Origin: Streptomyces sp. AA1529
GTDB taxonomy: Bacteria > Actinomycetota > Actinomycetes > Streptomycetales > Streptomycetaceae
Direction: 5' to 3'
NCBI RefSeq assembly: GCF_000280905.1
Contig: NZ_ALAP01000099.1
Location: forward strand, 1-64,000
Length of the DNA: 64,000 nucleotides
Of this stretch, positions 9,996-48,233 are shown piece by piece; position 1 is the first letter of the stretch, and each line of letters starts with the position of its first letter. A program made the translations under genes and the position numbers. The notes beneath the pieces are model-generated. The model searched no databases. It was not told where the DNA came from and saw only the letters and a list, made by a program, of their open reading frames with translations.

Positions 9996-10072
9996 CCGGA
10001 GGCCGCGCCTTCCGGTCCCCGGTCGGGCGACGAGCTCCGGGACCGGTCTTCAGCGGTGCGGCCCGTCCGCAC

Positions 10073-10116
10073 GGTGCGGGGCTGCACCCGGCGGCTCCGC
10101 CGCACAGCCCCGCACC
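10073..10116. terminator. Bidirectional hairpin terminator
   Basis: GGTGCGGGGCTG (10073-10084) and CAGCCCCGCACC (10105-10116) form a 12-bp perfect stem. The 20-base loop contains a second small hairpin (GGCGG/CCGCC). It lies between the convergent mannosyltransferase and ferritin-like genes. Confidence 0.75.
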
Positions 10117-10126
10117 CGCGTGCGGT

Positions 10127-11071: not shown

Positions 11072-11417
11072 GATCAGAGTTCTCTCTCTGCGGGGCCTGG
11101 GCCCGGATGGTTGCTGATGCCGGGTCATGTTGGGCCCGCCGGCGCCTCGTCGGGCGACCCGAACGGACGGGGAGGGACCGAACCCACCGGTTCGGGGGAA
11201 CACGTCCGCCGCCGAACGGAGCAGCGGGCCCGGTGCGTGCGGGCGAACCCGTCACCACGGATGTGCCACCCATGCGCCAGGAGCGGAGCGCAGGGCGGCG
11301 GGGCCGGCGCAGCCGGTCACACGGCGCCCACGGCGCGGAGCATCGTGCACGGGTCGGCGCTCTCTTCTGTGCCGGCCCCTGCCCGGTGCATCCGGCGGTC
11401 CGCGCCGTCCGACTCGT
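11072..11417. other. Divergent intergenic region (ferritin-like / APC transporter)
   Basis: This 346-base region separates divergently transcribed genes and must hold their promoters. No convincing small gene was found; translations are low-complexity. The N-terminus of the downstream transporter is uncertain, so part of this region or of the following 250 bases may belong to either class. Confidence 0.4.
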
Positions 11418-29962: not shown

Positions 29963-31048
29963 TCAGAGCACCCGGCGCAGCCAGCCGTGGGTGTCCTCGG
30001 CGCGGCCGTACTGGATGTCCAGCACCCGCGCGCGCAGGGCCGCCGTCTGCTTGCCCGGCTCACCGTCGCCGATGGCGAAGGCGTAGCCGTCGCCCTTGAA
30101 GCCGACGATCGGGGTGACCACCGCCGCCGTCCCCGCCGCGAACACCTCCGTGACGGTGCCGTCGGCGGCTCCGGACCGCAGCTCATCCAGGGTGATCTGG
30201 CGCTCCTCGCAGGTCAGTCCGGACTCGGCGGCCAGGGTGAGGATGGTGTCCCGGGTGACCCCCTCCAGGATGGTGCCCAGCGCCGGGGTGATCAGCCTGC
30301 CGTCCGCGGTGACCAGGCACAGGTTCATCGTGCCCGACTCCTCCAGGTACCCCTCGCCCGCGCTGTCCAGATACAGCACCTGGTCGCAGCCGTGCTCCTC
30401 GGCCTCCAGCTGTGCGGCCAGGCTGCCCGCGTAGTTGCCGCCGCACTTGGCGGTGCCGGTACCGCCCTTGCCCGCCCGGGTGTAGGTGCCGCTGACCCAC
30501 AGGGTCACCCCGGAGAGGCCGCCTTCGAAGTACGAGCCCGCCGGACTCGCGATCACCGAGAAGACGATCTCCTTGGCGGGCCGCACCCCCAGGAACGCCT
30601 CGGAGGCGAACATGAACGGCCGCAGGTAGAGGCTCTCCTCGTTGCTCGGCGTCGGCACCCAGGGCTCGTCGGCCCGGATCAGCTCCTCCACCCCCGCCAG
30701 GAAGTCCTCCTCGGGCAGCTCCGGCAGGGCCATCCGCCGCGCGGAGCGGGCGAAGCGCCGCGCGTTGGCCTCGGGGCGGAAGAGCCACACGCTGCCGTCC
30801 GCGTGCCGGTAGGCCTTGAGTCCCTCGAAGATCTCCTGCGCGTAGTGCAGCACGGCGGCGCTGGGGTGCAGCGAGAACGGCTCCAGCGGGCCGACCCGGT
30901 GGCCGTGCCAGCCGCGCCCGGCCGACCAGGTGGCCGTGGACATGTGGTCGGTGAAGAACCGGCCGAAGCCCGGCGCCGCGAGGATCTCCTGCCGCTCCGC
31001 CGGGGAAACGGGACTCGTCGTCCTGGTGAGGGGGAAGTCAGAGGCCAC
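29963..31048 (-). CDS. ilvE: Branched-chain amino acid aminotransferase
   Basis: A 361-residue fold-type IV PLP transaminase. SAAVLHYAQEIFEGLKAYR near residues 68-86, RPFMFASEAFLGV, the PLP-lysine region GTAKCGGNYAGS, and EESGTMNLCLV are typical of IlvE. It interconverts Val/Leu/Ile and their 2-keto acids, which feed branched acyl-CoA starters. GTG 31048 has AAGGAG six bases upstream. It follows the fabI gene in the same direction after 118 bases. This may be the housekeeping ilvE or a cluster-dedicated supplier of branched starter units; only genome context would tell. Confidence 0.92.
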   Translation of the reverse strand: MASDFPLTRTTSPVSPAERQEILAAPGFGRFFTDHMSTATWSAGRGWHGHRVGPLEPFSLHPSAAVLHYAQEIFEGLKAYRHADGSVWLFRPEANARRFARSARRMALPELPEEDFLAGVEELIRADEPWVPTPSNEESLYLRPFMFASEAFLGVRPAKEIVFSVIASPAGSYFEGGLSGVTLWVSGTYTRAGKGGTGTAKCGGNYAGSLAAQLEAEEHGCDQVLYLDSAGEGYLEESGTMNLCLVTADGRLITPALGTILEGVTRDTILTLAAESGLTCEERQITLDELRSGAADGTVTEVFAAGTAAVVTPIVGFKGDGYAFAIGDGEPGKQTAALRARVLDIQYGRAEDTHGWLRRVL

Positions 31049-31166: not shown

Positions 31167-31970
31167 TCACCGAGGGGGTTCGCCGATTCCGCCCGCGACG
31201 GCGTGCAGCCCGCCGTCGGCGTGCACGATCTGGCCGGTGGTGTGTGCGGCGAGGTCGGAGAGCAGGAAGAGCACCGCGCCCACGACCTGCCCCGGATCGG
31301 TGCGGTCCCAGCCCAGTGGCGCCCAGCGCTCGTAGTGCTCGGCGAGCGCCTCGAACGAGCCGATGCCCTGCGCGGAGAGCGTCTCCAGCGGCCCCGCGGC
31401 CACGAGGTTGACCCGCACCCCGCGCGGACCCAGATGCGCGGCCAGATAGCGGGCCACCGCCTCCAGGGTCGACTTGAAGACGCCCATCCAGTCGTAGCCG
31501 GGCAGGGCCCGGGAACTGTCCACGGTCACCCCCACGACGCTGCCCCCGTGCTGCGAGGCGGTCAGCAGCGGGGCGAGGGCGGCCGCCAGACGCTGCAGCG
31601 AGTAGGCCGAGACCTGGAAGCCCCGCAGCGCGCCGGCCGCCGGGGTCTCCAGGAAGGCACCGCTCACCGCGTCGGCGGGCGCGTACGCCACGCTGTGCAG
31701 CACCCCGTCCAGGGCGCCCCAACGCGCCTGGAGCTCCTCGGCCAGGCGGGCGAAATCCCCCTCGTCGGTGACGTCGAGCTCCAGCACGTCCGGCTCGCGG
31801 GGCAGCCGGGCCGCGGCCTTGCGGGCGATCCGCGCCGTGCGGCCGAAGGAGCTGAGCACCACCTCGGCACCGGCGCGCTGCAGTGCGGCCGCCACATGCC
31901 AGGCGATGGACTCCTGGTTGGTCACCCCGGTCACCAGATACCGCCGGCCGGTGAGGTCGTACGTGCTCAC
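31167..31970 (-). CDS. fabI: Enoyl-ACP reductase, FabI-type
   Basis: A 267-residue short-chain dehydrogenase of the FabI type. YLVTGVTNQESIAWHVA is the nucleotide-binding motif, HSVAYAPADAV carries the first active-site tyrosine, and YDWMGVFKSTLEA carries the Y-x6-K pair specific to FabI/InhA. It reduces enoyl-ACP in fatty-acid elongation. GTG 31970 overlaps the end of the ketosynthase gene by four bases (GTGA). Actinomycetes usually have one housekeeping FabI/InhA elsewhere, so this copy, embedded with its own ACP and synthase, is probably pathway-specific. Confidence 0.88.
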   Translation of the reverse strand: MSTYDLTGRRYLVTGVTNQESIAWHVAAALQRAGAEVVLSSFGRTARIARKAAARLPREPDVLELDVTDEGDFARLAEELQARWGALDGVLHSVAYAPADAVSGAFLETPAAGALRGFQVSAYSLQRLAAALAPLLTASQHGGSVVGVTVDSSRALPGYDWMGVFKSTLEAVARYLAAHLGPRGVRVNLVAAGPLETLSAQGIGSFEALAEHYERWAPLGWDRTDPGQVVGAVLFLLSDLAAHTTGQIVHADGGLHAVAGGIGEPPR

Positions 31971-33139
31971 GGCGCCCCCAGTACCAGCACACTGTTGTGG
32001 CCGCCGAAGCCCAGCGAGTTGGACAGCCCCAGTCGGCCGCGCGGCCCGGCGCTCAGCGTGCGGGCGGCCTGGATGTGCGACAGCCGCCCCAGCTCCGGGT
32101 CGGGCGCGGCCAGGCCGAGAGTGGGCGGGGCGAGCCGGTCGCGCAGCGCGGCCAGGGTGACGATGGCCTCCACCGCGCCGCCCGCACCGAAGAGGTGGCC
32201 GGTCGCGGCCTTGGTGGAGGAGAGCGGTACCGACGGCAGGGCCGCTCCCAGGGCCAGCTCCAGGGAGCGGATCTCGGACGCGTCGTTCAGCGGGGTGCCG
32301 GTGCCGTGCGCGTTGAGGTAGCACAGGTCCTCGGGGGCGGCACCGGCGTCGGCCAGCGCCTGCGAGACGGCGTGCGCGGCCGGCGCGCCGTCCGGTGGCG
32401 GGGCCGTGACGTGGTGGGCGTCGGAGCCGGCCCCGTAGCCCCGGACATGGCCCAGGACGCGGGCGCCCCGGGCACGGGCCCCGGCCGCGTCCTCCAGGAC
32501 GAGGACTCCCGCGCCCTCGCCCATCACGAAGCCGTCCCGGTCCGCACTGAACGGGGCGCAGCGCCCGGTGGGGGAGAGGGCGCCGGCCTGGGCGAAGGAC
32601 TCCCGCACCAGCGGCACGCAGGCGGCCTCGGCGCCGCCGGCGAGCACCGCCCGGGCCTCGCCCCGGCGGATCGCCCCGGCGGCGAGACCGATGGCCTGGG
32701 CGCCGGCTGCGCAGGCCCCGGAGGGAGCGGTGGACTCGCCGCGGATGCCGTAGCGGCGGCTGAGGCTCGCTGCGGCGCTGTTGGGCATCATCAGCGGCAC
32801 CGTCAGCGGGCTCGCCGTCCGCGCCGCCAGGACCTCGGGGCCACCGCCCAGGCCGCTGCCGATCACGCAGCGGACGTCCTCGGCCGGGTAGGGGAGTCCG
32901 TCGTCCCAGCCCGCCTGCCGCACCGCCTCGTCGGCGGCGACGAGGGCGAACTGTGCGAACCGGGCGTTCCGCTTGCGGTCGCGTGCCGTCAGGTGGTCGC
33001 GCGCGTCGAAATCCGTGCACCGCGCCTCACCGCCGTCGATCCCGGTTCCGCCCGCGACCAGCCGCGAGACGAGCCGGGCGGCACCGACGCCGAGCGGGGT
33101 GACCGCACCGACGCCGGTGACGGCGACCGCGACCGTCAA
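31967..33139 (-). CDS. Beta-ketoacyl-ACP synthase, FabF (KAS II)-like
   Basis: A 390-residue thiolase-fold condensing enzyme with the Cys-His-His triad: SGACAAGAQ (Cys near 143), [11 protein letters not shown] (His near 277) and KAATGHLFGAGG (His near 312). It extends acyl-ACP with malonyl-ACP. The start is probably TTG 33139, overlapping the acp stop (TTGA); no ATG or GTG lies near. The tight acp-KAS-fabI overlap implies one transcript. It is not a chain-length-factor pair, as no second subunit is present. Confidence 0.87.
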   Translation of the reverse strand: MTVAVAVTGVGAVTPLGVGAARLVSRLVAGGTGIDGGEARCTDFDARDHLTARDRKRNARFAQFALVAADEAVRQAGWDDGLPYPAEDVRCVIGSGLGGGPEVLAARTASPLTVPLMMPNSAAASLSRRYGIRGESTAPSGACAAGAQAIGLAAGAIRRGEARAVLAGGAEAACVPLVRESFAQAGALSPTGRCAPFSADRDGFVMGEGAGVLVLEDAAGARARGARVLGHVRGYGAGSDAHHVTAPPPDGAPAAHAVSQALADAGAAPEDLCYLNAHGTGTPLNDASEIRSLELALGAALPSVPLSSTKAATGHLFGAGGAVEAIVTLAALRDRLAPPTLGLAAPDPELGRLSHIQAARTLSAGPRGRLGLSNSLGFGGHNSVLVLGAP

Positions 33140-33384
33140 CGCGCGGCCGCTTCCACGACCCGCCGGGCGAGCTGGTCCACGGTGACCTCCGCCAGTTCGG
33201 GCCGCGGGATGGTGACGCCGTACTCCCGCTTGAGGGTCGACATCAGCTCCGCTGCGTCGAGCGAGTCGATGTCGAGATCGTCGAACCTGGCGTCGGGCGT
33301 GAGGGTCTCCTCCTCGACTCCGGAGTCGACCAACTCCGTGCGGATCAGGTCCCGTACGGTCTCGACGGTGACGGGTTCGGCCAT
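33136..33384 (-). CDS. Free-standing acyl carrier protein
   Basis: An 82-residue acidic four-helix ACP. DDLDIDSLDAAELMS contains the phosphopantetheine serine at residue 41 in the D-S-L motif. The ATG has AAGGAG six bases upstream, and the stop overlaps the start of the ketosynthase gene. It probably carries the acyl chain for the adjacent KAS and FabI enzymes, and perhaps for the radical SAM and di-iron proteins encoded just upstream. Confidence 0.92.
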   Translation of the reverse strand: MAEPVTVETVRDLIRTELVDSGVEEETLTPDARFDDLDIDSLDAAELMSTLKREYGVTIPRPELAEVTVDQLARRVVEAAAR

Positions 33385-33481: not shown

Positions 33482-34594
33482 TCAGCGGGCGAAAGCGGGG
33501 GCGTGCGACTGCGCCCAGTACCACTGGCGCCAGTAGCTCTCGGCGAGGTCCAGCCAGGTCTCCAACCGCTGCACGCTGTCGAGGAACCGGTGGAAGCTGA
33601 CCATCAGCCAGCTGTAGACGGCCTGGCTGTCGCGGCAGCCGTCGCAGTCGCCCGAGGTGCAGCAGAACTGCAGGGTCTCGTAGTCGGCGCCGTACACGGC
33701 GAAACCGTCCAGCACCGGATTGCCGTTGGCCACGCGCTGCTCGTGCTCCGGCAGGTCGACGCTGATGCTGGGGCACACGTCGTAGCCGAACCGGCCGCCC
33801 CAGTGGGTGCGCCCGGTGATCAGCGTCTCGATGAAGTACGGGTGCGCGACCACGGCCTCCGGATATGCCTCCGCGACCCGCAGCGCTTCGGCGAGCGTGC
33901 GCTGCTCGTCGTCGATCCGCAGCGGACTGTCCGAGCCGTGCTCGCTGTAGAAGTTGAACGTCACCTGGTTGCCGTTGTCCCGGATCGCCCGCACCGTCGG
34001 CTCGATGTACGGCAGCCCCGCCTCCGAGAGGGCGAAGACGAACGTGACCCTGGGATCGTCCCGGTAGTGGCCCAGCGCCTTCTCGAACAGCCCGGTGAAG
34101 GAGGAGCCGTTGGGCCGGTGCGCGCGCAGCTCGTCGTCCAGTGGCCCGCCGCCGAACAGGCTGATGCCGACGGCCACGTTCTCGAAGCCGTCCATCGGCA
34201 GCGGACGCAGCCCGTTGGTGGAGATCGTCAGATACGGCAGCTGCTCGACGAAGGGGCGCACCCGGTCCAGCACCAGGGTCGGCTCGCCGCCGATGAGTGT
34301 CGCCTGGGTGACCCCGTCCGCGGCGAGCTTCTCCGCGAAGGCCCGGATCAGGCCGGGGTCGGAGGTCTCCCGGACCGCCGTGTCGAAGCCGCCCTCGAAG
34401 TACCAGCAGCCCTTGCAGCGGATGTTGCAGGTGGTCGTCAGATGCACCTCGCATCCGCGCACCCGCGTCCCCATTCTGCGCACGTCCTTCAGCCGGGCCG
34501 CGAGATCCGGGCGGTCGGCCAGATGCCCCCGCAGCCGTGCCTTGGCCTCCGCGCGGGAGGGCGGGCGCGGGGTGATGTGTACTGCTGTGGTCAT
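33482..34594 (-). CDS. Radical SAM protein with C-terminal cysteine cluster
   Basis: A 370-residue radical SAM enzyme. C56-x3-C60-x2-C63 (TTTCNIRCKGCWYFEGG) binds the catalytic 4Fe-4S cluster, and TLIGGEPTL is the glycine-rich SAM-binding GGE motif. Further cysteines at about 285 (DVCPS) and in QFCCTSGDCDGC near residues 319-330 suggest an auxiliary SPASM/twitch-type cluster. Such enzymes modify peptides, sugars or small molecules by hydrogen abstraction. No peptide precursor gene is visible nearby. GGGAGG lies five bases before ATG 34594. It is 14 bases after the di-iron gene and 97 before the acp. The substrate is unknown; a carrier-bound acyl chain is one possibility. Confidence 0.88.
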   Translation of the reverse strand: MTTAVHITPRPPSRAEAKARLRGHLADRPDLAARLKDVRRMGTRVRGCEVHLTTTCNIRCKGCWYFEGGFDTAVRETSDPGLIRAFAEKLAADGVTQATLIGGEPTLVLDRVRPFVEQLPYLTISTNGLRPLPMDGFENVAVGISLFGGGPLDDELRAHRPNGSSFTGLFEKALGHYRDDPRVTFVFALSEAGLPYIEPTVRAIRDNGNQVTFNFYSEHGSDSPLRIDDEQRTLAEALRVAEAYPEAVVAHPYFIETLITGRTHWGGRFGYDVCPSISVDLPEHEQRVANGNPVLDGFAVYGADYETLQFCCTSGDCDGCRDSQAVYSWLMVSFHRFLDSVQRLETWLDLAESYWRQWYWAQSHAPAFAR

Positions 34595-34608
34595 GGCTGC
34601 CTCCCGGC

Positions 34609-35328
34609 TCATTCCGGCACGCGCAGGCCCAGGTTGGCGACTCGCGGACCGACCTTCTGCCGCCACAGCTCGATCGCCTCGCCGTTGGTCGTCCTGCGCA
34701 GCCCGTAGCGCACCGCCAGCTTCGAGCGCTTGGTGTTCGCACTGCCGAAGATGCCCACGAACATCGGCCACAGCCGCTCCAGCGCGGCCTGTAGTTCGGC
34801 GCGGCCCTCCTCGGTGGCGGCGAGGTTGCGGCAGACCCGCGCGCCGTGCGCGATGTGGATCTTCTCGTCCAGGATGATCGTGCGGACGGCCTCCGCCCAT
34901 GGCTTGTAGCTGCTCTCCGCGAACTCGCGCAGCATCACCATCGCGGTCTCCTCGCCGATGTAGGAGTACACCCCCCGCTCGGCCCACGTGGTGCAGGAGT
35001 GCATCCGCTCGTCCGCGAACAGCATCCGCTCGGAGACCGCCTGGGTCTCCATGTAGGTGGTGTCGATGCCGAGATCGGCCAGCACCCGCTTGCCGATCTT
35101 GTAGTGGTCGTACTCCTCGGCGGCCCGCTCCGCGCACACCTGGCGTTCCTCGGCGTCCGGCGCCAGCGGCAGGAACATCTGTACATAGTCGTCGCCGCCC
35201 GAGAGCTCACCCTCGGTGTTGATGGTGACCTGACTGATCAGCATCTTCTGGTAGTCGCGGGGCATCCGGTGGAACTCGTCCGGGGTGCGCACCACGACTT
35301 CCTCGTCGTCCAGGACCGCGATCGTCAT
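34609..35328 (-). CDS. PaaA/PaaC-like ferritin-fold di-iron protein
   Basis: A 239-residue protein of the phenylacetyl-CoA epoxidase (PaaA/PaaC) ferritin-like family. Candidate iron ligands are E39, E72 and H75 (EEYDHY), E126 (YIGEETA) and E155 with H158 (LDEKIH), giving two Glu sets and two ExxH motifs as in di-iron oxygenases. The other Paa subunits (B, C, D, E) are not present in the window, so it must act alone or with an unlinked reductase. GAGAGG lies about seven bases upstream of ATG 35328. It leads the minus-strand operon with the radical SAM gene. Hydroxylation or epoxidation of an acyl-thioester is a reasonable guess only. Confidence 0.78.
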   Translation of the reverse strand: MTIAVLDDEEVVVRTPDEFHRMPRDYQKMLISQVTINTEGELSGGDDYVQMFLPLAPDAEERQVCAERAAEEYDHYKIGKRVLADLGIDTTYMETQAVSERMLFADERMHSCTTWAERGVYSYIGEETAMVMLREFAESSYKPWAEAVRTIILDEKIHIAHGARVCRNLAATEEGRAELQAALERLWPMFVGIFGSANTKRSKLAVRYGLRRTTNGEAIELWRQKVGPRVANLGLRVPE

Positions 35329-35587: not shown

Positions 35588-37357
35588 ATGTCAACTTCCC
35601 AGCAGTCGGACGCTCACCCGCCCGGCGCGGCAGCGGAGGCGCCCGCCGGGCCGCTGCGCCGCGCCATGGAGACGATCCGCGCCCTGCGCGGCGAGCTGGC
35701 CGCCTTGCGGGGAGCGCAGCGGACGGCCGTCGTCGGCACCGGTCTGCGCGCCCCCGGCGGCATCGCCGGCCGCGACGCCTACTGGCAGGCGCTGGCGGCG
35801 GGGCAGGACCTGGTGGGCGAACTGCCCGAGCAGCGCCGCCGCGCCTTCCCCGGCGGCTGGGAAGGGCTGCTGACCCGCGGTGGCTATCTGCCCGACGTCC
35901 TCGGCTTCGACGCCCGCTTCTTCGGCATCTCGCCGCGGGAGGCGCGCAGCCTCGACCCGCAGCACCGGCTGCTGCTGGAAGTGGTGTGGGAGGCGTTCGA
36001 GGACGCCGCCCTGCCCCCGGAGGACGTCGCCGAGCGCACCGGGGTCTACGTCGGCATCACCGGCCAGGACCACCGGCTGTGGGACGAGGGCGAACCCAAC
36101 GCCTCCTGGCTGATCGGCAACGGCCACTGCTTCGCCGCCGGCCGGCTCGCCTACACGCTCGGCCTCCGGGGCCCCGCACTGGCGCTGGACACCGCGTGCT
36201 CGTCGTCGCTGGTGGCGGTGCACACGGCCTGCCGGGCGCTGGCGGCCGGAGACTGCGACGTGGCCGTGGCCGGCGGCGTCAACCTGGTGCTCGCGCCCCG
36301 GTCGACGGCGGAGATCCAGCGCACCGAGGCGCTCTCGCCCGACGGCCGGTGCCGCCCCTTCGACGCGCGCGCCAACGGGTTCGTCCGGGGCGAGGGCGCC
36401 GGTGCCGTCGTGCTCAAGCGGCTGGCCGACGCCGAGCGCGACGGCGACCGGATCCTCGGGGTGATCGAGGGCAGCGGAGTCAACCAGGACGGCCGCTCCT
36501 CCGGGTTCACCGCACCCAACGTACTGGCCCAGCAGACCCTGATCGAGGGCGTTCTCACCGCGGCCGGCCTCACCGGCGCCGACATCGGCTACCTGGAGGC
36601 GCACGGCACCGGCACCCCGCTGGGCGACCCGATCGAGATCGAGGCCGCCCGGGCCGCCCTGGACTCGCCGGGGCGCAGCTGGCATGTCGGATCGGTCAAG
36701 GCGAACCTCGGCCATGCCGAGGCCGCCGCCGGCATCCTCGGCCTGATCAAGGCGCTGCTCTGTCTGGAGCGGCGGCAGATCCCGCGCCAAGCCCACTTCG
36801 AGACGCTCAACCCCCGGATCCGCCTGGACGGCAGCGGTCTGACGGTACCGGCCGAGACCCGGCCCTGGGAGCCGTCGGCGGGCCGGTGCGCGGCCGTCAG
36901 TTCCTTCGGGATGAGCGGCACCAACGCGCACGTCGTCCTCTCCCGTCCCACCGCCGGGCCCGTACCGGCTCCCGCACCGGCCGCCGGATTCCCGGTGTAC
37001 GCGCACACCGAAGCGGCCCTGCGCACCCTGGCGGGCCGGTACGCGCGACGACTGGCCGAGTCCGGGGACGGCGCGTCCGCCGGGGACGGATACGCGGCCT
37101 TCGCCACGACCGCGCAGCACGGGCGCACCCGGCTGCGGCGGGCCGCCTGGATCACCGCGGCGGGCTCCGAGGAGGCCGCGGAAGCGCTGCGCGCCCTCGC
37201 GGCGGGCCGGGACCATCCGCGGGTGCGGATGCTGGAGACCGCCGAGCACCCCCCGCCCGGCAGCGCGGACGGCACCGCCCAGGAGCGTCCGGTCCGCGCG
37301 GGCATGACCGCGCTGCCGGGCTACCCGTGGGAGCGGACGACCTACTCCAGCCGCTGA
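35588..37357 (+). CDS. Free-standing type I PKS ketosynthase lacking an acyltransferase
   Basis: A 589-residue protein. After a short charged helix ([20 protein letters not shown]-like, a docking-domain type segment near residues 20-45), it is a complete modular-PKS ketosynthase: [12 protein letters not shown] (Cys near 204), [12 protein letters not shown] (His near 339), [10 protein letters not shown] (His near 376) and [14 protein letters not shown] closing it. The remaining ~130 residues look like the KS-AT linker and end with [10 protein letters not shown], the sequence normally found after an acyltransferase. No AT motif (GHSxG) is present between. It therefore looks like a KS-AT protein from which the AT was deleted, though the KS triad is intact. 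It is convergent with the thioesterase/PKS genes. Confidence 0.87.
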
Positions 37358-37410: not shown

Positions 37411-37854
37411 TCAGCGCGCGCCCGCACCGGGCCGGCTCCGCCTCCCCGGAAACGAGAAGTGCAGCGTGGCCAGGGCGACGGGGCACCCGTCCGGGCTCTC
37501 GACCCGTGCCGAGACGACCGCCGTACGCCGGCCGATCCGCTCGGGCACGACGCGCGCGTGCAGCCGCTCCGGCGCGGTTGCCTCCAGGAAGCTGATGCTG
37601 CTGGAGGTCAGCATCGCCGACGGCGTCCCGCCCAGATAGGCGTTCACCGCCAGATAGCCCGCCACGTCCGCGAACGCGAACAGGGCGGGCCCGGAGACGG
37701 TGCCGCCGGGCCGCACCGTGAGCCCCGCCGGGTCCGCGACGAACACCAGCCCGCCGGGCCCGACGTCGAGGAGGTCGACGCCCGGCGGATCGGGCAGATA
37801 TGCGGCGATCAGGTCCCGGATCTGCGCGGGCCCGAGGACCGGCCCGTCACCCAT
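37411..37854 (-). CDS. Hotdog-fold acyl-CoA/ACP thioesterase (PaaI-like)
   Basis: A 147-residue hotdog thioesterase. GGTVSGPALFAFADVAGYLAV contains the helix with the catalytic Asp/Gly region of the PaaI/4HBT type, followed by LTSSSISFLEATAPERLHARVV. The start overlaps the end of the PKS gene by eight bases, so the two are co-expressed. The PKS itself ends with an ACP and has no thioesterase domain, making this protein the probable chain-release or editing enzyme. Confidence 0.82.
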   Translation of the reverse strand: MGDGPVLGPAQIRDLIAAYLPDPPGVDLLDVGPGGLVFVADPAGLTVRPGGTVSGPALFAFADVAGYLAVNAYLGGTPSAMLTSSSISFLEATAPERLHARVVPERIGRRTAVVSARVESPDGCPVALATLHFSFPGRRSRPGAGAR

Positions 37855-40800
37855 GGGCCCCCGCCTCGTCCGCAGCCGGGGCGGCCGGGGGGCGGGGCCC
37901 CGCCCCCGCCTCCCCTTCCGGTCCGGCCTCCACCAGCGCGGTCAGCGCCGGGGCGAGCCGGGCCAGGGTGCCGTACTTCCACAGCAGCGTCGGGCTCAGC
38001 CGCACCCCCAGGAACGCCTCGAGCTTGTTGCGCAGCTCCAGCGACATCAGCGAGTCCAGCCCGAGTGCGCGCAGCGGCACATCGTGCGGCAGCTTCTCCG
38101 GCGCCAGGCGCAGTACCGCCGCCGCCGTACGGCGCACCTCCGCCTCCACCACCTCGCGCCGCCGCGCCGCCGGGATGCTCCGCAGCTCCGTCGGCGCGAC
38201 CGTTCCGCCGGTCCCGGCGAGCGGCTGCCAGCTCGCCAGCGCGGCCGCCGCCGGGTAGGACTCCAGCCAGTGCCGCGGATCGAGGTCGAGGCAGGCCACC
38301 TGCGCCTCGTCCGACTCCAGATACCGCCGCAGCGCCCGCCAGCACACCTCGGCCGGGACACTGCCCAGCCCGCGCGCCGCGAGCCGGTCCCCGCGCCCGG
38401 TGCCGGTGGCCATCCCGGCTCCGGAGACCGGCCCCCACTGCACGCTCAGCGCCGGCAGCCCCGCCGCCCGCCGCTGCGCCGCCAACGCGTCCAGGGCGCT
38501 GTTCGCCGCCGCGTAGGCCGCCTGCCCGGCTGTGCCCACGAACGCGGCGGCGGAGGAGAACAGCACGAACAGGTCCAGCGCGTCCCCCTCGGTCAGCTCG
38601 TGCAGGACGCGTGCTCCGTCGGCCTTCGGCCGCAGCACCCGCGTCAGCAGCGCGCCGTCCAGGTTCGCCACGGTCGCATCCGCCAGCACCCCCGCTGCAT
38701 GGAAGACCCCGCGCAGCGGCGGCAGTTGCGCGCGCACCTCCGCCAGCACCGTGCGCATCCGCGCCTCGTCGGCCACGTCCGCCGACCACACCCCCACCCG
38801 CACGCCGCGCTCGCGCAGCGCCTCGACCCGCTCCGGGTCCCGGGGCGCCGAGCGCCCGACCAGGGCCAGGGCGCCGGCTCCGGAGGCGGCCAGGTACTCG
38901 GCGAGCGACATGCCGAGCGCCCCGAGCCCGCCGGTGATCAGATAGCTGCCCGCGGCCCGGAACCGTCCCCCGGGCAGCGGCTGCGGGGCGACGGGAACCG
39001 TGCCGCCTCCGCTCGGGATCGGCTCGGTGAGTACGAGCTTGCCGGTGTGCCGCCCGTGGGAGAGCGTGCGGAAGGCCTCCTGGGCCTGCGTGAAGGGCAT
39101 CTCGCGCACCGGCAGCGGCCGCAGTTCCCCGCCCGTCACCCGCGCCCACACGGTGGCCAGGAGCGCCGCGAACCGTTCGGGGCGGCGGCGGAGCAGCCCG
39201 GCGACGTCCACGGCGGTGAAGGACACCGCCTTGCGGAAGGCACCCAGTTCGACGGATGTCTCCCGATGGATGTCGCGCTTCCCGGCCTCCACGAACCGCC
39301 CGTCCTCGGCCAGCGCCTCCAGACCGAGCGGAATCGCCGCCCCGGGCAGGGAGTTGAGCACCACGTCGACGCCGCGCCCCCCGGTCGCGGCCCGCACCCC
39401 CTCGGCCCACTCCAGGGTGCGGGAGTCGAAGACGTGCTCCACGCCCCCGGCGCGCAGCTGCTCCCGCTTCTCCTCGGTACCGGCCGTGGCGATCACCTCG
39501 GCTCCCGCGAGCCGGGCCACGCGCAGCGCGGCGAGTCCGAGCCCGCCGGCGGCCGAGTGCACGAGCACGGTCTCGCCCGGCTCCAGCCGGGCCACCTCCA
39601 TCAGCGCGTACCAGGCGGTGACCAGCACCATCGGCAGCGCCGCCGCCTGCGCCGCGGTCAACTCCCGCGGAATGCGGGCGGTGTGCCGGGCCTCGACCAG
39701 CGCGTGCGAGGCCAGGACGCCGAAGCCGCAGGCCGCCACCCGGTCACCGACCGCCACGCCGCCGGCCCCCGGACCGACCGCGGTCACCGTGCCCGCGCAG
39801 TCCAGGCCGAGCAGTTCCCGGCCGGGGGAGTGGTCGTCCGGGTAGACGCCCATCGCCTTCATCACGTCGATGAAGTTCAGCGACGCGGCCTCGACCGCCA
39901 CCTCGACCTGTCCGGGGCCCGGCCGGGGCCGCTCCAGCGGACGGGCGCACAGCGCCGACAGGTCGCCCGGCCGCGGAGTGCCCAGCCGGAACGGCTGGGC
40001 GCCCGAGCCCGTCCGCCACGGCGGGTCGGCGGCGGGCGGACCTCCGCTCACCCGCTCGCCCACCAGCCGCTCGCCGCCGGACAGCACGACCCGGTCCTCC
40101 GTGGCGGCGAGCTCCGCCACCAGGTCGGCGTCGAACGTGTCGGTCTCGATCAGCCGCGTCCCGAACTGTGGGTACTCCGCCTGCACGACCGCCACGAACC
40201 CCGGGTACAGCCCGGCGTCCGGGTCGCCCCGGCGGACCACCACCGCCAGCCGCGCGGACGGGTTCTCGTCCGCGCAGCGGCCGACCAGCCGTGCCAGCTC
40301 CAGCAGCCCGTCCCGGCCCTCCTGCGGCGCGACGAACACCACGGTGTCCGCCCCGGCCGGATCCTCCCCGGCCATGTCCGGCAGCACCCCGGGCCGCCCG
40401 CGGACCACCACCTTGCCCGGCAGCCCGCCGTCCCCGGCCGCGCCGTCCGGCCCCGCAGCCGGGGCGGCGGGCCGCTCCCGGGGCACGAAGCGCATCCGGT
40501 AGGTGAGCCGCCCGGTCTCCGCGGCGTCGCCGGCGCCGCCGGGAAGCGCCGTCAGCAGCACTCCCTCCAGCCGTCCCAGCGGGCGCTGCCCGGTGTCGAA
40601 GAGCGCCAGGTCGACCTCGCCCCCCGCGCCCGGCCGGGCGTGCACCCACAGGGCGTCGGCGTCCGTCACCGCGACCGCGGCCCGCCGGACCCGGCGCGGC
40701 AGGACCGGACCGTCGCACACGACCAGCGCGGCCTGCAGCATGCCGTCCCACAGCACCGGGTGCGGTGTCCCCGACAGCGCCCCCGAGCGGCTGCCGGGAG

Positions 40801-43800
40801 GCAGTTCGAGCCGGACCAGTGCCTCCCGTCCGGTTCCCGAAGCGGCTTCGGCGACGTGGCCGCCGGCGATCGGCCGGAAGGCGGGTCCGTAGTCGAGGTC
40901 TCTCGCCGCGCAGTCCCGGTAGAAGCCGTCCGCGTCCAGTGGCGCGGCGCCCAGCAGGTGTGCGGGGAACCCGCCGGCCGGCGGGGCGCTGTCGCGGGCG
41001 GCTGTCGCACGGCAGTGCCGCGTCCACCCGGCATCCGCCTCCGCGCCGGGTGCGGGCCCGGTCGAGCCGGCCTCGCGGGACCGCACCTCCAGCGCGCCCG
41101 AGTCCCCGGGGCCGGGGCGCTGGACGAGGGCGGTGCGGACCGGTTCCTCGCCCACCGCCAGCGCGCCGGTCAGCTGCACGTCCCGCAGCACGGGCGTCCC
41201 CCGCCCGGCGGATCCGGACTCGTGCGCCCCGCCGTGCAGCGACTGGTGGAGCAGCGCCAGGAAGCCGCCCGCCGGGAACAGCACCGTGCCGTGCACCCGG
41301 TGGTCGGCCAGCCACGGGTGGGTGCCCGTGTCCAGTTCGACGGCGCTCTCCCGCACGCCGCCCGCGGTCGAGGGCACCTCGGCCGGGACCAGCCGCCCGC
41401 TGCGGACTCCGCTGTGCCGTCCCGGCGCGACCCAGTACCGCTCCCGCTGGAAGGGGTAGGGCGGCGGAACGGCGTCCGGGCGCCGCGCCGGGCGCGGTCC
41501 GAGCGCGGGCAGGCCCGAGACGTAGGCTTCCGCGAACGCGCGCATCAGGTCCGGGTGTTCGCCCTCGTCGCGGCGCAGTGTGCCCAGCACCACCGGTGGT
41601 TCCGGCCGCTCCTCCGCGAGCTGGCGCAGTGCCGCGCCGAGTCCCGGATGCGGGCTGACCTCCACCAGGTGGGTGACGTCCTCGTCGATCAGGGTGTCCA
41701 CCGCCTCGGCGAACCGCACCGGGCGGCGCAGGTTCTCGGCCCAGTAGCGGGCATCCGCCTCCGGCCCGCGCAGCCGGGTGAGGCCGACCGTGGAGAGCAG
41801 CGGTGTGTCCGCGGGGCCCGGCGCGACGGCTGCGAGCGCCTCGCGGATCCTCGGCAGGAGGGGATCGACTTGCGGGCTGTGCGAGCCGTAGTCGACGTCG
41901 ACCAGCCGGCAGAACACTCCGTCGGCCTCCAGGATCTCCCGCAGCAGCAGCACCGAGTCGGCGTCGCCGGACAGCACGCAGGAGCGCGGCCCGTTGTACA
42001 CCGCCGGTTCGACCAGTCCCTCGAAGCCCGCGACGGCCTGCCGTGCCGCGTCCGGAGCCAGGTCCACGGCCAGCATCCGCCCGCCGCCGGCGATCTCGCG
42101 CAGCAGGCCGCTGCGGCGGCAGACCACCAGCGCCCCGTCCTCCGGCGTGAGCACACCGGCGACCGTGGCGGCGGCGATCTCGCCCTGGCTGTGCCCGACG
42201 ACGACATCCGGCTCCACCCCGGCCGCCCGCCACGCCGCGGCCAGCGACACCGACATCGCCCACAGCGCGGGCTGCACCTCGGCCACGTCCCGCGGTGCCG
42301 GGCCGCCCGTGACCATCTCGCGTACGTCGCGCGGCGCATGCGGGGCCAGCGCCCGTGCACAGCGGTCCATGGCCCGAGTGAACGCGGCGTCGCGCCCGTA
42401 GAGGCCCGCGCCCATGCCCGCCCACTGGGCGCCCTGGCCGGGGAAGACGAAGGCGACCTTGCCCCGCCGCCGGGCGCGGCCCCGCGCCACCTCCGCCAGG
42501 TCCGGGCCCAGCAGAGCGCACCGCTCCGCGAAGTGGTCCCGGTGCCAGGCCATGGCCCGCGCCAGCTCCGGTGCCGACGTACCCGCGGCCAGCTGCTCCC
42601 GGATGCCGCGGGTCCGTTCCTCCAGCGCCCGGGGGGTGTGCCCGCTGACCGGCAGCAGGAACGGCTCACCGGCCTCCTGCCGCGCCGCCGCGCCGGGCTC
42701 CTCCCGCACGGCCCGGGAGTCCTGCTCCGGGGTCCGGTCCTGCTCGGGCGTCCGGGCTGGAGCCGGTCTCGCGGCCCGGGCGGACGGCTGCGCGGTCGCG
42801 GCCTGCGGCGTGGTGACGACGGCGTGGGCGTTGGTGCCGCCCCAGCCGAAGGAGTTGACGCCGAGGAAGCTGCCGGGCTCCAGCGGCAGCGGGTCCCGGG
42901 TGACGGCGAGGTTCAGCCCGGTGAAGTCGATGGCCGGGTTGGGCACCTGCGCGTGCAGGCTCGGCGGGACGGTGCCGTGCTCCAGCGCCAGGACGGCCTT
43001 GACGAGTCCGGCGAGTCCGGCGGCCGGCTCCAGATGGCCGATGTTGGTCTTCACCGAGCCGATGTGCAGCGCACGGCCGGGCCGGGCCGCGCCCAGCACC
43101 TCGCCGAGCGCCTGCGCCTCGGCCGCGTCCCCGCGTGCGGTGCCGGTGCCGTGCGCCTCGACGTAGGCGAGCCGGTCCAGTGGGATGCGGCCGGAGGCGT
43201 AGACGCCGCGCAGCAGGTCGCGCTGCGCGGCCGGATGCGGAGTGACCAGGCTCTCGCCGCCGCCGTCGTTGTTGACCGCGCTGGCCGCCACCACCGCGCG
43301 GATCCGGTCGCCCGCGCGGCGGGCGTCGGCCAGCCGCTTGAGGTAGACCACGGCGACGCCCTCGCCGCGGACGAACCCGTCCGCGGCGGCGCCGAAGGCG
43401 TGGCAGCGGCCGGTGGGGGACAGGCCGCCGAAGTGGGTGAGGCCGACCGTCACCTCGGGCGTGAGCATCAGATTGGAGCCGCCGACCAGGGCTCCCTCGA
43501 TCTCGCCGGAGCGCAGCGCCTGGCAGGCCTGGTGCACGGCGACCAGGGAGGAGGAGCAGCTGCTCATGAGCGTCAGGCTGGGCCCGGTCAGTCCGAGGTG
43601 GTAGGAGACCCGGGAGGAGACGATGTCCAGTGAGTTCCCGACGATGCTGTGCTGGGTCACCGCGGCGCCCCGGTCCTTGCGGAGCAGTTCGTAGTCGTGC
43701 CAGAGCCCGCCGACGTAGACGCCGGTGCGGGAGCCGCGCAGCGCGGACGCGGGTGCACCGGCGTCCTCCAGGGCCCGCCAGGTCGTCTCCAGCATCAACC

Positions 43801-44071
43801 GCTGCTGCGGGTCGAGCACTTCGGCCTCGCGCGGTGAGATCGTGAAGAAGACCGGGTCGAACGCGTCGATGTCCTCCAGGAACGCGCCGACCCGCTGGAT
43901 CTCCCGGGTCGCGTCGAACACCGCTGCCGGATCCCAGCGTTCGGGCGGCACCGGCCCCACCGCGTCGCCCCCGCCGATCAGCAGTTCCCAGAACGCCTCC
44001 GTGTCCGGCGCCTGCGGGAAGCGCCCCGCCATGCCGACGACCGCCACCGCACCGCTGTCCGCGTCACTCAT
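37847..44071 (-). CDS. Fully reducing type I polyketide synthase, KS-AT-DH-ER-KR-ACP (MAS-like)
   Basis: A 2074-residue one-module synthase. [13 protein letters not shown] (Cys near 172), EAHGTGTARGD, NIGHLEPAAG. AT: FPGQGAQWAGMG near 543, GHSQGE with the Ser near 627, YGSH near 728. DH: DHRVHGTVLFP (H-x3-G-x4-P) near 924, LWDGMLQ. ER: HSAAGGLGLAAL near 1505. KR: TGGLGALGMSLAEYL near 1714 and AAYAAANSALDALA (Tyr near 1852). ACP: LGLDSLMSLELRN (Ser near 2006). All domains keep catalytic residues. The domain order matches mycocerosic acid synthase and other iterative reducing PKSs. GHSQG with YGSH leans toward methylmalonyl-CoA. ATG 44071 has GGGGGAGG upstream. Confidence 0.95.
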   Translation of the reverse strand: MSDADSGAVAVVGMAGRFPQAPDTEAFWELLIGGGDAVGPVPPERWDPAAVFDATREIQRVGAFLEDIDAFDPVFFTISPREAEVLDPQQRLMLETTWRALEDAGAPASALRGSRTGVYVGGLWHDYELLRKDRGAAVTQHSIVGNSLDIVSSRVSYHLGLTGPSLTLMSSCSSSLVAVHQACQALRSGEIEGALVGGSNLMLTPEVTVGLTHFGGLSPTGRCHAFGAAADGFVRGEGVAVVYLKRLADARRAGDRIRAVVAASAVNNDGGGESLVTPHPAAQRDLLRGVYASGRIPLDRLAYVEAHGTGTARGDAAEAQALGEVLGAARPGRALHIGSVKTNIGHLEPAAGLAGLVKAVLALEHGTVPPSLHAQVPNPAIDFTGLNLAVTRDPLPLEPGSFLGVNSFGWGGTNAHAVVTTPQAATAQPSARAARPAPARTPEQDRTPEQDSRAVREEPGAAARQEAGEPFLLPVSGHTPRALEERTRGIREQLAAGTSAPELARAMAWHRDHFAERCALLGPDLAEVARGRARRRGKVAFVFPGQGAQWAGMGAGLYGRDAAFTRAMDRCARALAPHAPRDVREMVTGGPAPRDVAEVQPALWAMSVSLAAAWRAAGVEPDVVVGHSQGEIAAATVAGVLTPEDGALVVCRRSGLLREIAGGGRMLAVDLAPDAARQAVAGFEGLVEPAVYNGPRSCVLSGDADSVLLLREILEADGVFCRLVDVDYGSHSPQVDPLLPRIREALAAVAPGPADTPLLSTVGLTRLRGPEADARYWAENLRRPVRFAEAVDTLIDEDVTHLVEVSPHPGLGAALRQLAEERPEPPVVLGTLRRDEGEHPDLMRAFAEAYVSGLPALGPRPARRPDAVPPPYPFQRERYWVAPGRHSGVRSGRLVPAEVPSTAGGVRESAVELDTGTHPWLADHRVHGTVLFPAGGFLALLHQSLHGGAHESGSAGRGTPVLRDVQLTGALAVGEEPVRTALVQRPGPGDSGALEVRSREAGSTGPAPGAEADAGWTRHCRATAARDSAPPAGGFPAHLLGAAPLDADGFYRDCAARDLDYGPAFRPIAGGHVAEAASGTGREALVRLELPPGSRSGALSGTPHPVLWDGMLQAALVVCDGPVLPRRVRRAAVAVTDADALWVHARPGAGGEVDLALFDTGQRPLGRLEGVLLTALPGGAGDAAETGRLTYRMRFVPRERPAAPAAGPDGAAGDGGLPGKVVVRGRPGVLPDMAGEDPAGADTVVFVAPQEGRDGLLELARLVGRCADENPSARLAVVVRRGDPDAGLYPGFVAVVQAEYPQFGTRLIETDTFDADLVAELAATEDRVVLSGGERLVGERVSGGPPAADPPWRTGSGAQPFRLGTPRPGDLSALCARPLERPRPGPGQVEVAVEAASLNFIDVMKAMGVYPDDHSPGRELLGLDCAGTVTAVGPGAGGVAVGDRVAACGFGVLASHALVEARHTARIPRELTAAQAAALPMVLVTAWYALMEVARLEPGETVLVHSAAGGLGLAALRVARLAGAEVIATAGTEEKREQLRAGGVEHVFDSRTLEWAEGVRAATGGRGVDVVLNSLPGAAIPLGLEALAEDGRFVEAGKRDIHRETSVELGAFRKAVSFTAVDVAGLLRRRPERFAALLATVWARVTGGELRPLPVREMPFTQAQEAFRTLSHGRHTGKLVLTEPIPSGGGTVPVAPQPLPGGRFRAAGSYLITGGLGALGMSLAEYLAASGAGALALVGRSAPRDPERVEALRERGVRVGVWSADVADEARMRTVLAEVRAQLPPLRGVFHAAGVLADATVANLDGALLTRVLRPKADGARVLHELTEGDALDLFVLFSSAAAFVGTAGQAAYAAANSALDALAAQRRAAGLPALSVQWGPVSGAGMATGTGRGDRLAARGLGSVPAEVCWRALRRYLESDEAQVACLDLDPRHWLESYPAAAALASWQPLAGTGGTVAPTELRSIPAARRREVVEAEVRRTAAAVLRLAPEKLPHDVPLRALGLDSLMSLELRNKLEAFLGVRLSPTLLWKYGTLARLAPALTALVEAGPEGEAGAGPRPPAAPAADEAGAHG

Positions 44072-46289: not shown

Positions 46290-48233
46290 TCACCCTCCGG
46301 CGCGGCCCGCGCACGCTTCGGCCGCCGCGCGGTAGCGCTCGACCGGCCCGAGGGTGAGCACGCCGCTGGCGGCACCTGCCTGTTCGGTGCGGGCACCCCG
46401 CAGCGCCGCTGCGGCCCGCGCGGCGGTGCCGGGCTCCTCCAGGCGGGCGGCGGCGTGCGCGGTCAGGCACCAGAGCGCTTCCTGGAGGTGGTCGTACGGC
46501 GGCTCCGGGACGGTGGCGAGGGCCGCGCGGGCCTCGGCCGGACGCTCCCGGGCGAGGAGCACGAGCGGCGCCGCCCAGGGCAGATACGGTCCCCAGTCCA
46601 GCTGCGGGTCGGCGGGGGCCGGGCGGCCGTGCAGCAGACGCAGACCGAGCAGCGCGAGCGGCAGCAGGCCGCGGTGCAGCCCCGGCATCCCGGCTGTGCG
46701 CAGGGCACCGTCGGCGGCGCGGTAGGCGCCCGCGGCGGCTGCCGGGGACGGCCCGTCGGGTCCGGTGCTCCGCGCTGCGGCGGCCCGGGCCCGGAACCAG
46801 GCGGTGAGGACCGGGACGAGCGGGGCCTCGTGGACGGCGGCGACCGCTTCGGCGGCGGCCGCGTGCCCGGCGGCGCCCGCCAGGTCACCGACGGCCGAGG
46901 CGGACTGCAGGCGGATGAGCCGGCCCAGGATGGCGAAGGTCGGCAGCTCGTGCCGGGTGGCCAGGGCGACGAGTTCGGCACCGATGGCGTCCCGCCGCAA
47001 CGCGAGCCCCGGGCGCCCGAAGGACTGCAGGAAGACGCCGTTGAGCGCGAAGGCCAGCAGCGCGGGATCGCCCAGGCCCCGCGCGAGCGCCTCGGCCCGG
47101 TGCGCGGCCTCGTACCCGGCCCGCAGCGCTGCCCCGCGCAGGTCGCCGCTGCGGCTCTCGACGGCGACGGTGGCCAGCAGCCGCGCCCGCAGCGCGGGAG
47201 GACCGTCGGGTCCCAGGGCCCGTAGCGTGCGCTCGGCGAGTGCCACGACGGCGCGGCACTGCTCCGGATCGTCGGCACGGCTCCAGATCGAGGGCACGTC
47301 GTAGGCGCCGACGACCCGGGCGGTCAGTTCGGTGTCCCCCGTGCGCTCGGCGGCCCGGGCGGCGGCGAGCCGGTCGCGCCGCGAGAGGACGAGCGCGTCG
47401 CTGCCCGCCAGGGCCAGGGTGCGGGCCAGTTCCACGGTGGTACGGGGGCCGAGCCGGGCAGCGGCCCCGGAGCGGAGGTCGAGGGCCGGTTCGAGGGACG
47501 CGGATCCGTCGAGGATCTCCGCCTCCAGCCGCCGCAGTTCGGTTCCGGGGTCGAGCCCCAGTTGTTCGACGAGCATCGTGCGGGCCCGGCGGAGCGTGGC
47601 CAGCGCGTCGGCCTGGCGTCCGTCCCGGTGCAGGGCGCGTGCCAGCAGCGCCCAGGCCGCCTCGCGCCAGGGGTGCTCGTCGGAGTGTGCGCCGAGTTCG
47701 GCGACGAGTCCGCCGCTCGCCCCCGCGTCGAGGAGAAGGCCGGCCCGGAGCTCGATCCCCTGCAGCCGCAACTCCTCCAGCCGGGCGCGCTCCCGCTGCG
47801 CCCAGGCGGCGTCGGGCAGGTCGGCGTAGGCCGGTCCGCGCCAGGAGGAGAGGACCTCGCCGAGCGCGGCGACCTCGCCGGGGGAGCGGCGGGCGCGTTC
47901 CAGGACGTCCTGGAACCGGTGCGCGTCCACGGCCTCGCGCGGCAGCCGCAATGCGTAGCCGGAACCCTCCGTGACCAGGATCCGCGGCGGGGTGCGCGGC
48001 GGCCGGTCGGGCTCGACGGCGCGGCGCAGGGCGGCGACGAAGGTGCGCAGCGCACCCGGGCCGCGGGCCGGGGGCTCGGGCCACAGGTCCGCCACCAGGG
48101 TGTCGGTGGCCACCATCCGCCCCTCGGCGGCGACGAGCCGGGCGAGCACCTCCCGGTGCCGGGGTCCGCCCAGCGCGATCGGGGTGCCGTCGCCGCGCAG
48201 CGCCCGCACCGGGCCCAGTACATCGATCCGCAT
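46290..48233 (-). CDS. SARP/BTAD-family transcriptional activator with long helical C-terminus
   Basis: A 647-residue regulator. Residues about 1-90 are an OmpR-type winged helix (MRIDVLGPVRALRGDG, LGGPRHREVLARLVAAEGR, TDTLVADLWPEPP). Residues about 95-240 are the bacterial transcriptional activation domain (YADLPDAAWAQRERARLEEL, HPWREAAWALLARALHRDGR). The rest is a long alanine-rich helical region with possible TPR-like repeats; no P-loop ATPase was seen, unlike AfsR. SARPs often activate biosynthetic clusters; the PKS cluster begins about 2 kb away, but an immediate target is the divergent alpha/beta hydrolase gene. Confidence 0.87.
   Translation of the reverse strand: MRIDVLGPVRALRGDGTPIALGGPRHREVLARLVAAEGRMVATDTLVADLWPEPPARGPGALRTFVAALRRAVEPDRPPRTPPRILVTEGSGYALRLPREAVDAHRFQDVLERARRSPGEVAALGEVLSSWRGPAYADLPDAAWAQRERARLEELRLQGIELRAGLLLDAGASGGLVAELGAHSDEHPWREAAWALLARALHRDGRQADALATLRRARTMLVEQLGLDPGTELRRLEAEILDGSASLEPALDLRSGAAARLGPRTTVELARTLALAGSDALVLSRRDRLAAARAAERTGDTELTARVVGAYDVPSIWSRADDPEQCRAVVALAERTLRALGPDGPPALRARLLATVAVESRSGDLRGAALRAGYEAAHRAEALARGLGDPALLAFALNGVFLQSFGRPGLALRRDAIGAELVALATRHELPTFAILGRLIRLQSASAVGDLAGAAGHAAAAEAVAAVHEAPLVPVLTAWFRARAAAARSTGPDGPSPAAAAGAYRAADGALRTAGMPGLHRGLLPLALLGLRLLHGRPAPADPQLDWGPYLPWAAPLVLLARERPAEARAALATVPEPPYDHLQEALWCLTAHAAARLEEPGTAARAAAALRGARTEQAGAASGVLTLGPVERYRAAAEACAGRAGG

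Follow-up and report, generated by a model that had tools for sequence, protein, structure and literature searches.

A conserved actinobacterial gene cassette uniting a PaaA-like di-iron protein, a radical SAM protein and an acyl carrier protein

The analysed stretch of Streptomyces sp. AA1529 DNA (64,000 nucleotides, contig NZ_ALAP01000099.1; hereafter the window) encoded a PaaA-like ferritin-fold di-iron protein (34609–35328, minus strand, 239 amino acids) and, 14 bases downstream, a radical S-adenosylmethionine (SAM) protein (33482–34594, minus strand, 370 amino acids), followed by an acyl carrier protein (ACP; 33136–33384, minus strand). Comparison with related loci left little doubt that these three genes, in this order, form a conserved actinobacterial biosynthetic cassette. 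On sequence grounds, an ACP-bound acyl substrate shared by the PaaA-like and radical SAM enzymes is the likeliest setting, and the aminotransferase and thioesterase encoded nearby point to a 2-oxo or 2-amino acid. Together, these genes suggest that fatty acids are converted into unusual amino acids by a route not yet described.

Occurrence and conservation

The genomes of 84,980 species were searched with the PaaA-like protein by a pattern method. This yielded 36 related loci with PaaA-like identities of 69–98%, a lower bound, since the method retrieves close relatives only. Genes were called and then clustered in these loci and the window (37 loci). The order PaaA-like, radical SAM, ACP was kept in all 37, with a branched-chain aminotransferase (BCAT) gene inserted between the radical SAM and ACP genes in one (L045). 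The adjacency of the PaaA-like and radical SAM genes, repeated in the same order in 36 related loci, is far beyond chance. The unit occurred in Streptomyces, Streptantibioticus, Micromonospora, Pseudosporangium, Streptosporangium, Sinosporangium, Microbispora and Nocardia, and in metagenome-assembled genomes (MAGs) of Pseudonocardiales and Thermomonosporaceae. The nearest named locus was that of Streptomyces qinglanensis, with a PaaA-like protein 98% identical to that of the window.

Among 391 genomes of the order, 13 encoded a PaaA-like protein with 48% identity or more and one further genome a protein of 37% identity; the other matches were at 21–28%, and sixteen of these that were examined were ordinary PaaA, 58–66% identical to the own-genome PaaA. 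The radical SAM family was rare, with matches in 3 of 396 genomes sampled across the phylum (E ≤ 1e-15). The pairwise distances of the PaaA-like and radical SAM proteins correlated over the 37 loci (r 0.947, mirror-tree); as this comparison had no genome-wide control, it is evidence that the two are inherited together and says nothing about function. For the ACP and the FabF-like ketosynthase, the distance comparison was limited to proteins encoded close to the pair with at least 40% identity, from 18 and 25 loci, respectively.

An initial annotation of the window had placed the two reading frames at the same positions and described them as lying directly upstream of an ACP gene, without usual partners, and suggested that they modify one acyl substrate stepwise. 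The positions and the place of the ACP gene were confirmed. The shared substrate was upheld as the likeliest setting by the constant ACP gene, the correlated distances, intact metal-site residues and neighbours of the fatty acid synthase (FAS) type; the aminotransferase and thioesterase had been overlooked.

Properties of the two enzymes

The PaaA-like protein matched the Pfam family PaaA_PaaC with 66.1 bits (cut-off 28.5) and fell far short of the NCBIfam PaaA model TIGR02156 (73.5 versus 280 bits). Ligand positions were mapped from the window and Escherichia coli PaaA rows, and a phmmer alignment agreed. The di-iron ligands of E. coli PaaA (E42, E72, H75, D126, E155 and H158) all had counterparts (E41, E72, H75, E126, E155 and H158), with Glu rather than Asp at position 126. 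The residues initially proposed to bind iron were therefore right for E72/H75, E155/H158 and E126 and wrong for E39, which aligned with H40 of PaaA; E41 lay opposite E42 instead. The six positions, and also E39, were unchanged in all 37 rows of the alignment, which, like that of the radical SAM protein, consisted of the window, L032–L066 and the second copy of L045. Locus L067 (Streptomyces sp. WAC08241) was left out because its PaaA-like and radical SAM frames (9970–11843) look broken near their starts, by decay or sequencing error.

The AlphaFold2 model of the PaaA-like protein was confident (pLDDT 92.5) and showed a PaaA-type ferritin fold (TMq 0.78–0.85 versus PaaA chains). Its best structural match was SSO1313 (PDB 4mud; Z 24.9, 219 aligned residues, 2.2 Å), followed by PaaA (Z 24.2–24.5, 231–234 aligned residues, 2.5–2.6 Å, 23% identity) and then by PaaC, BoxB and aldehyde-deformylating oxygenase (ADO). 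The enzymes structurally near it (PaaA, BoxB and ADO) oxidise acyl-coenzyme A (CoA) or fatty aldehydes. In a phylogeny of the kind suggested in the initial annotation, the PaaA-like proteins did not fall inside Paa operons; they formed a single clade (SH-aLRT 99) far from E. coli and Streptomyces PaaA and PaaC, on a tree that carries long-branch warnings. Searches for PaaB, PaaC, PaaD and PaaE with own-genome and E. coli queries (E ≤ 1e-3) matched none of the 37 loci, as had been claimed for the window. The pair was thus alone with respect to Paa subunits only; it was regularly accompanied by an ACP, a reductase, a beta-ketoacyl-ACP synthase (KAS), a thioesterase and an aminotransferase.

The radical SAM protein scored 25.5 bits with Pfam Radical_SAM, slightly below the cut-off of 29.5, and exceeded the cut-off of Fer4_12. 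These were its only matches up to E = 1, without a cobalamin-binding domain in the 370 residues, and it came near the cut-off of none of the curated NCBIfam radical SAM families. A CX3CX2C motif (C56, C60, C63) and GGE at 102–104 lay on a partial TIM barrel and were present in all 37 rows. The second cysteine cluster, already remarked upon in the initial annotation, consisted of C274, C311, C312, C317 and C320 and was equally invariant. Its spacing, C-X36-C(C)-X5-C-X2-C, differed from the SPASM pattern and lay in a region where the structure model was poor. A radical SAM protein of 50% identity in another locus (L072) retained C274, C311, C317 and C320, not C312. These four cysteines could be enough to ligate an auxiliary [4Fe-4S] cluster fully. 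In VIA-align, the best match to the model was BlsE (Z 13.8, 238 aligned residues, 3.7 Å), with SkfB and viperin next. Foldseek ranked anSMEcpe and CteB highest, with poor superpositions (root-mean-square deviation 11–15 Å for the first rows). Across both searches, the structural matches were BlsE, SkfB, viperin, SuiB and anSME; they are too varied to settle the reaction, and a family's absence from the match lists carries no weight.

Associated genes

Partner genes were counted with fixed thresholds in the 37 loci and in further flanks of seven (L036, L037, L042, L050, L056, L061 and L064). A FabI-like reductase was encoded in 34 of the 37 loci and an elongating KAS in 30, either of the type in the window (24) or of a second type, KAS-b (6), never both. 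The presumed initiating enzyme was a protein with a polyketide synthase (PKS)-type ketosynthase (KS) only (11/37) or a KASIII (18/37), again never both. A hotdog thioesterase was found in 27 loci, an alpha/beta hydrolase in 18, an AMP-binding ligase (Pfam) in 15 and cyclohexanecarboxylate-type genes, counted by their EPSP-like domain, in nine. The Fisher p value of 0.005 in these counts ignores the kinship of the loci.

An aminotransferase of the IlvE, BCAT or class I/II type was present in 24/37 loci: IlvE in 11, one further BCAT in L045 and class I/II in 12, with no locus containing both IlvE and a class I/II enzyme. Aminotransferases of these types are regular company of the cassette and, as far as sequence can tell, work on 2-oxo acids. 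On the tree of the PaaA-like and radical SAM proteins, the aminotransferase type switched at least three times and the initiating-KS type once. That unrelated aminotransferases replace one another in a single slot argues that what is selected is the making of an amino acid from a 2-oxo acid, not a particular protein. The 11 cluster IlvEs and one copy from another AA1529 contig (C15) formed a clade (100/100) apart from 14 other BCATs of the AA1529 and related genomes (51–56% identity). About 11 kb from the C15 copy lay a gene for a 55% relative of an AurF-like protein of L045.

In four loci (L050, L056, L060 and L061), the cassette stood beside genes for a Cys/Met-metabolism pyridoxal-phosphate enzyme, a flavin (FAD) protein and a non-ribosomal peptide synthetase (NRPS), the last with condensation (C), adenylation (A), carrier and thioesterase (TE) domains by Pfam in L050.

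A possible route and its alternatives

We propose that a private FAS-II-like line assembles, on a private ACP, an acyl chain that is short or branched, or cyclohexyl in some loci. The first condensation would presumably fall to the KS or KASIII and the elongation to KASII or KAS-b, with the FabI-like reductase working in the same line. The di-iron PaaA-like enzyme would hydroxylate the ACP-bound chain, most likely at C-2, and the radical SAM enzyme would oxidise the carbinol in a radical two-electron step to a 2-oxoacyl-ACP. The hotdog thioesterase would then free the 2-oxo acid, and the aminotransferase would convert it into an unusual alpha-amino acid for possible use by a PKS or NRPS.

The position and order of the oxidation are inferred. 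C-2 was chosen for three reasons: an oxidase acting there would hand its product straight to the aminotransferase; the pair stays the same from locus to locus and the starters do not; and the lipidic amino acids of fungi have been proposed to arise in this way. The radical SAM enzymes anSME and BtrN oxidise C–OH or C–SH; casting the cassette protein as an alcohol oxidase after their example is a guess among several radical SAM chemistries. We hold oxidation at C-2 by the pair tentatively, at somewhat less than an even chance, and consider it an even call whether a 2-oxo acid made by this cassette is aminated. An amino-acid dehydrogenase near a PaaA-like gene that has no radical SAM neighbour (L073, below) was counted in favour of the route. 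The complete proposal is rather unlikely to hold in every part: it would be the first biosynthetic route where one ACP-bound fatty acyl chain is worked on by an O2-dependent PaaA-type di-iron oxygenase and then by a radical SAM enzyme. The two would introduce the 2-oxo group from which the alpha-amino group of an unusual amino acid is made, and would serve as a module that can be exchanged between pathways, preceded by various starters (branched, cyclohexyl or other) and followed by various PKS or NRPS lines.

Several findings weigh against this route. With respect to the enzymes, no PaaE-like reductase was encoded in the 37 loci and no dedicated electron donor for the radical SAM protein was noticed. 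The model of the latter was of low confidence (pLDDT 73.5, below 50 at residues 57–75 and 293–308), and BlsE, its best match, is a decarboxylase/dehydratase and no dehydrogenase. A simpler way to oxidise a 2-hydroxyacyl group would be an NAD-dependent enzyme. Thirteen of the 37 loci contained no IlvE, BCAT or class I/II aminotransferase. In nine of these (L038–L041, L044, L046, L047, L049 and L051), the view of 9–21 kb was ended by the contig or the fetch; L060 and L065 had none on 17 and 21 kb, and L056 and L061 none even over 60 kb. The C15 copy of the IlvE clade (L114:12148–13290) lay outside any such cluster.

Two loci also spoke against strict coupling of the pair. In L072 (8018–12147), the radical SAM gene was followed 20 bases downstream by a cytochrome P450 gene and preceded by a P450-like gene on the same strand, and no PaaA-like gene was matched in the 19.9 kb read; the radical SAM enzyme may require an oxygenase, not specifically a PaaA-like one. 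Conversely, L073 (6933–11027) encoded the 37% PaaA-like protein without a radical SAM protein, together with an amino-acid dehydrogenase of the ELFV type (closest model ScyB) two genes further along, a nitroreductase, an unassigned 264-amino-acid protein and a 4HBT protein. A second PaaA-like/radical SAM pair (48%/55% identical) was found in a different cluster type in L045 (1380–9862) and L074 (9580–18067), with genes for a Rieske oxygenase, an AMP-ACP-KS protein, an ACP, a thioesterase, an AurF-like protein and a hotdog thioesterase; in L045 it lay approximately 8.5 kb from the first pair. In S. netropsis, both pairs were neighbours.

Remote C–H chemistry is about as likely as oxidation at C-2. 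The pair would then act on the same ACP-bound chain away from C-2, to desaturate, hydroxylate, rearrange or cyclise its middle or end, and any 2-oxo acid would arise otherwise. Ferritin-fold and radical SAM enzymes attack unactivated C–H bonds, and the order of structural matches of the radical SAM protein (BlsE, then SkfB and viperin), which leaves its reaction unfixed, is compatible with such chemistry. However, the pair was constant while starters varied, with cyclohexane-type genes in 9/37 loci, which argues that the pair acts close to the thioester and not at the starter end of the chain, and the regular aminotransferase would need another source of its oxo group.

We give a small chance to the possibility that the aminotransferase acts at the start, deaminating Val, Leu or Ile for branched starters, and that the PaaA-like and radical SAM proteins carry out a tailoring unrelated to it. 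Branched starters are common in Streptomyces, and the cluster IlvE scored as a canonical BCAT (NF009897, 475 bits, cut-off 307). However, IlvE was also encoded in 3/3 cyclohexane-type loci with fetched flanks, which have their own starter genes and do not need a Val- or Leu-derived starter, each of 12 genomes checked had another BCAT of the non-cluster type, and in 12 loci a class I/II enzyme filled the slot. It is very improbable that the product has the extra IlvE, and perhaps also the KAS and the FabI-like reductase, as resistant versions of its targets in place of biosynthetic enzymes. All three have housekeeping relatives, and the AA1529 genome contained two further IlvE-like genes besides that of the cluster, yet the swapping of IlvE for an unrelated aminotransferase is hard to reconcile with resistance, and the FabI-like reductase adjoins the ACP or KAS in loci of differing product types. 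The Pfam and NCBIfam calls might imply that part of a phenylacetate operon has decayed here or been moved next to a radical SAM gene that has nothing to do with it. As far as sequence can tell, this was ruled out by the separate clade, the absence of PaaB–E from the 37 loci, the invariant ligands, the constant order and a complete paaABCDE set on another contig of the AA1529 genome.

If the proposed route from an ACP-bound acyl chain to a 2-oxo acid is correct, it would allow bacteria to turn fatty acids directly into non-proteinogenic alpha-amino acids and would join two enzyme types usually placed in opposite oxygen worlds. PaaA-like proteins, by name part of phenylacetate catabolism, would have moved to carrier-bound biosynthesis. 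The cassette is a handle for genome mining: the records of the 36 loci are named, and several of the strains are kept in culture collections. Small, apparently self-contained versions that could be expressed whole occurred in S. litmocidini, S. tanashiensis and S. nymphaeiformis (L057, L062 and L066).

Relation to known pathways

The cassette protein shares the ferritin fold and six ligand positions with PaaA of the E. coli PaaABCDE system, and differs from it in the absence of PaaB–E, its own clade, an ACP rather than CoA setting and Glu126 for Asp126. The Sulfolobus PaaA relative SSO1313 is, like the cassette protein, a short form without the PaaA tail; it is archaeal, titled only phenylacetic-acid-degradation-like, and 16% identical. 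With SPASM/Twitch radical SAM enzymes (anSME, SuiB, CteB and SkfB), the cassette radical SAM protein has in common CX3CX2C, GGE and extra cysteines after the barrel. Unlike these, it reached no NCBIfam family and had its own cysteine spacing, and no peptide substrate gene was seen.

In nine loci, the cassette lay beside genes of a cyclohexanecarboxyl-CoA starter pathway (EPSP-synthase-like/AMP-ligase, acyl-CoA dehydrogenase and old yellow enzyme-type) of the ansatrienin/phoslactomycin type. That pathway is not known to include a PaaA-like/radical SAM pair. A cyclohexane-type Micromonospora cluster also encoded a stand-alone condensation-domain protein and a P450 (L077:7931–9685) beside the KAS, IlvE and KS-only protein.

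For the lipidic amino acids of fungal apicidin F and HC-toxin, the sources describe an FAS, P450 oxidation to a 2-oxo acid and then a ToxF-type BCAT, with the oxidation proposed, not reconstituted (PMC4109984, PMC3729494). A dedicated FAS and a BCAT-type aminotransferase are common to this route and the cassette, whereas the fungal route has a type I FAS and P450s and the bacterial cassette has FAS-II parts and the PaaA-like/radical SAM pair in the place of the P450. Dedicated fatty-acid-type enzymes with a carrier were found in the cassette, as was a dedicated aminotransferase (24/37 loci, own IlvE clade). The mycoplanecin cluster, in the portion of its report that was available, likewise combines an ACP, a KASIII(-like) protein, a radical SAM protein and BCAA-like amino-acid building genes. 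The company is similar and the enzymes are others: the radical SAM protein is proposed to be a methyltransferase, a P450 is held responsible for the 2-oxo group, and that portion names no PaaA-like gene (PMC10817943). Biotin-antimetabolite clusters were dropped as a comparison, as the accessible part of their description covers ACP, KAS and P450 genes and no PaaA-like/radical SAM pair (PMC13336041). No description of a PaaA-like, radical SAM and ACP cassette was found in the open-licence literature by title and abstract start, which is weak evidence of novelty.

Organization of the AA1529 locus

Six genes on the minus strand were arranged in the order of transcription PaaA-like, radical SAM, ACP, FabF-like KAS (KASII), FabI-like reductase and IlvE, separated by 14 bases, 97 bases, two 4-base overlaps and 118 bases, a spacing as in an operon. 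The ACP (82 amino acids, DSL serine, PP-binding 47.6 bits) belonged to a family present in 37/37 loci. The KASII gene (31967–33139, TTG start) overlapped that of the ACP and had relatives of at least 50% identity in 24/37 loci. The FabI-like enoyl-ACP reductase, a short-chain dehydrogenase/reductase (31167–31970, GTG start), overlapped KASII and reached 314.7 bits with the FabI model NF005908 (cut-off 299). The IlvE gene of the dedicated clade (29963–31048) had a GTG start at 31048 with AAGGAG ahead.

Around this row, divergent or nearby, were a KS-only gene (35591–37357, plus strand), a hotdog-fold thioesterase gene (4HBT, 37411–37854, minus strand; 147 amino acids, 41 bits) and a single-module reducing type I PKS gene (37847–44071, minus strand). 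The KS-only protein retained the KS C-terminal extension and had no acyltransferase (AT); it may be a KS of PKS origin that has been taken over to catalyse the first condensation. The PKS had the domains KS, AT, dehydratase, enoylreductase, ketoreductase and ACP, and thus the KS-AT-ACP set of a type I PKS. Long matches to it were found only in the closest loci (L032–L035, 61–90%), and most related loci were without it. A gene for a Streptomyces antibiotic regulatory protein (SARP)-type (BTAD) regulator (46290–48233, minus strand) is a possible cluster edge and may be a member.

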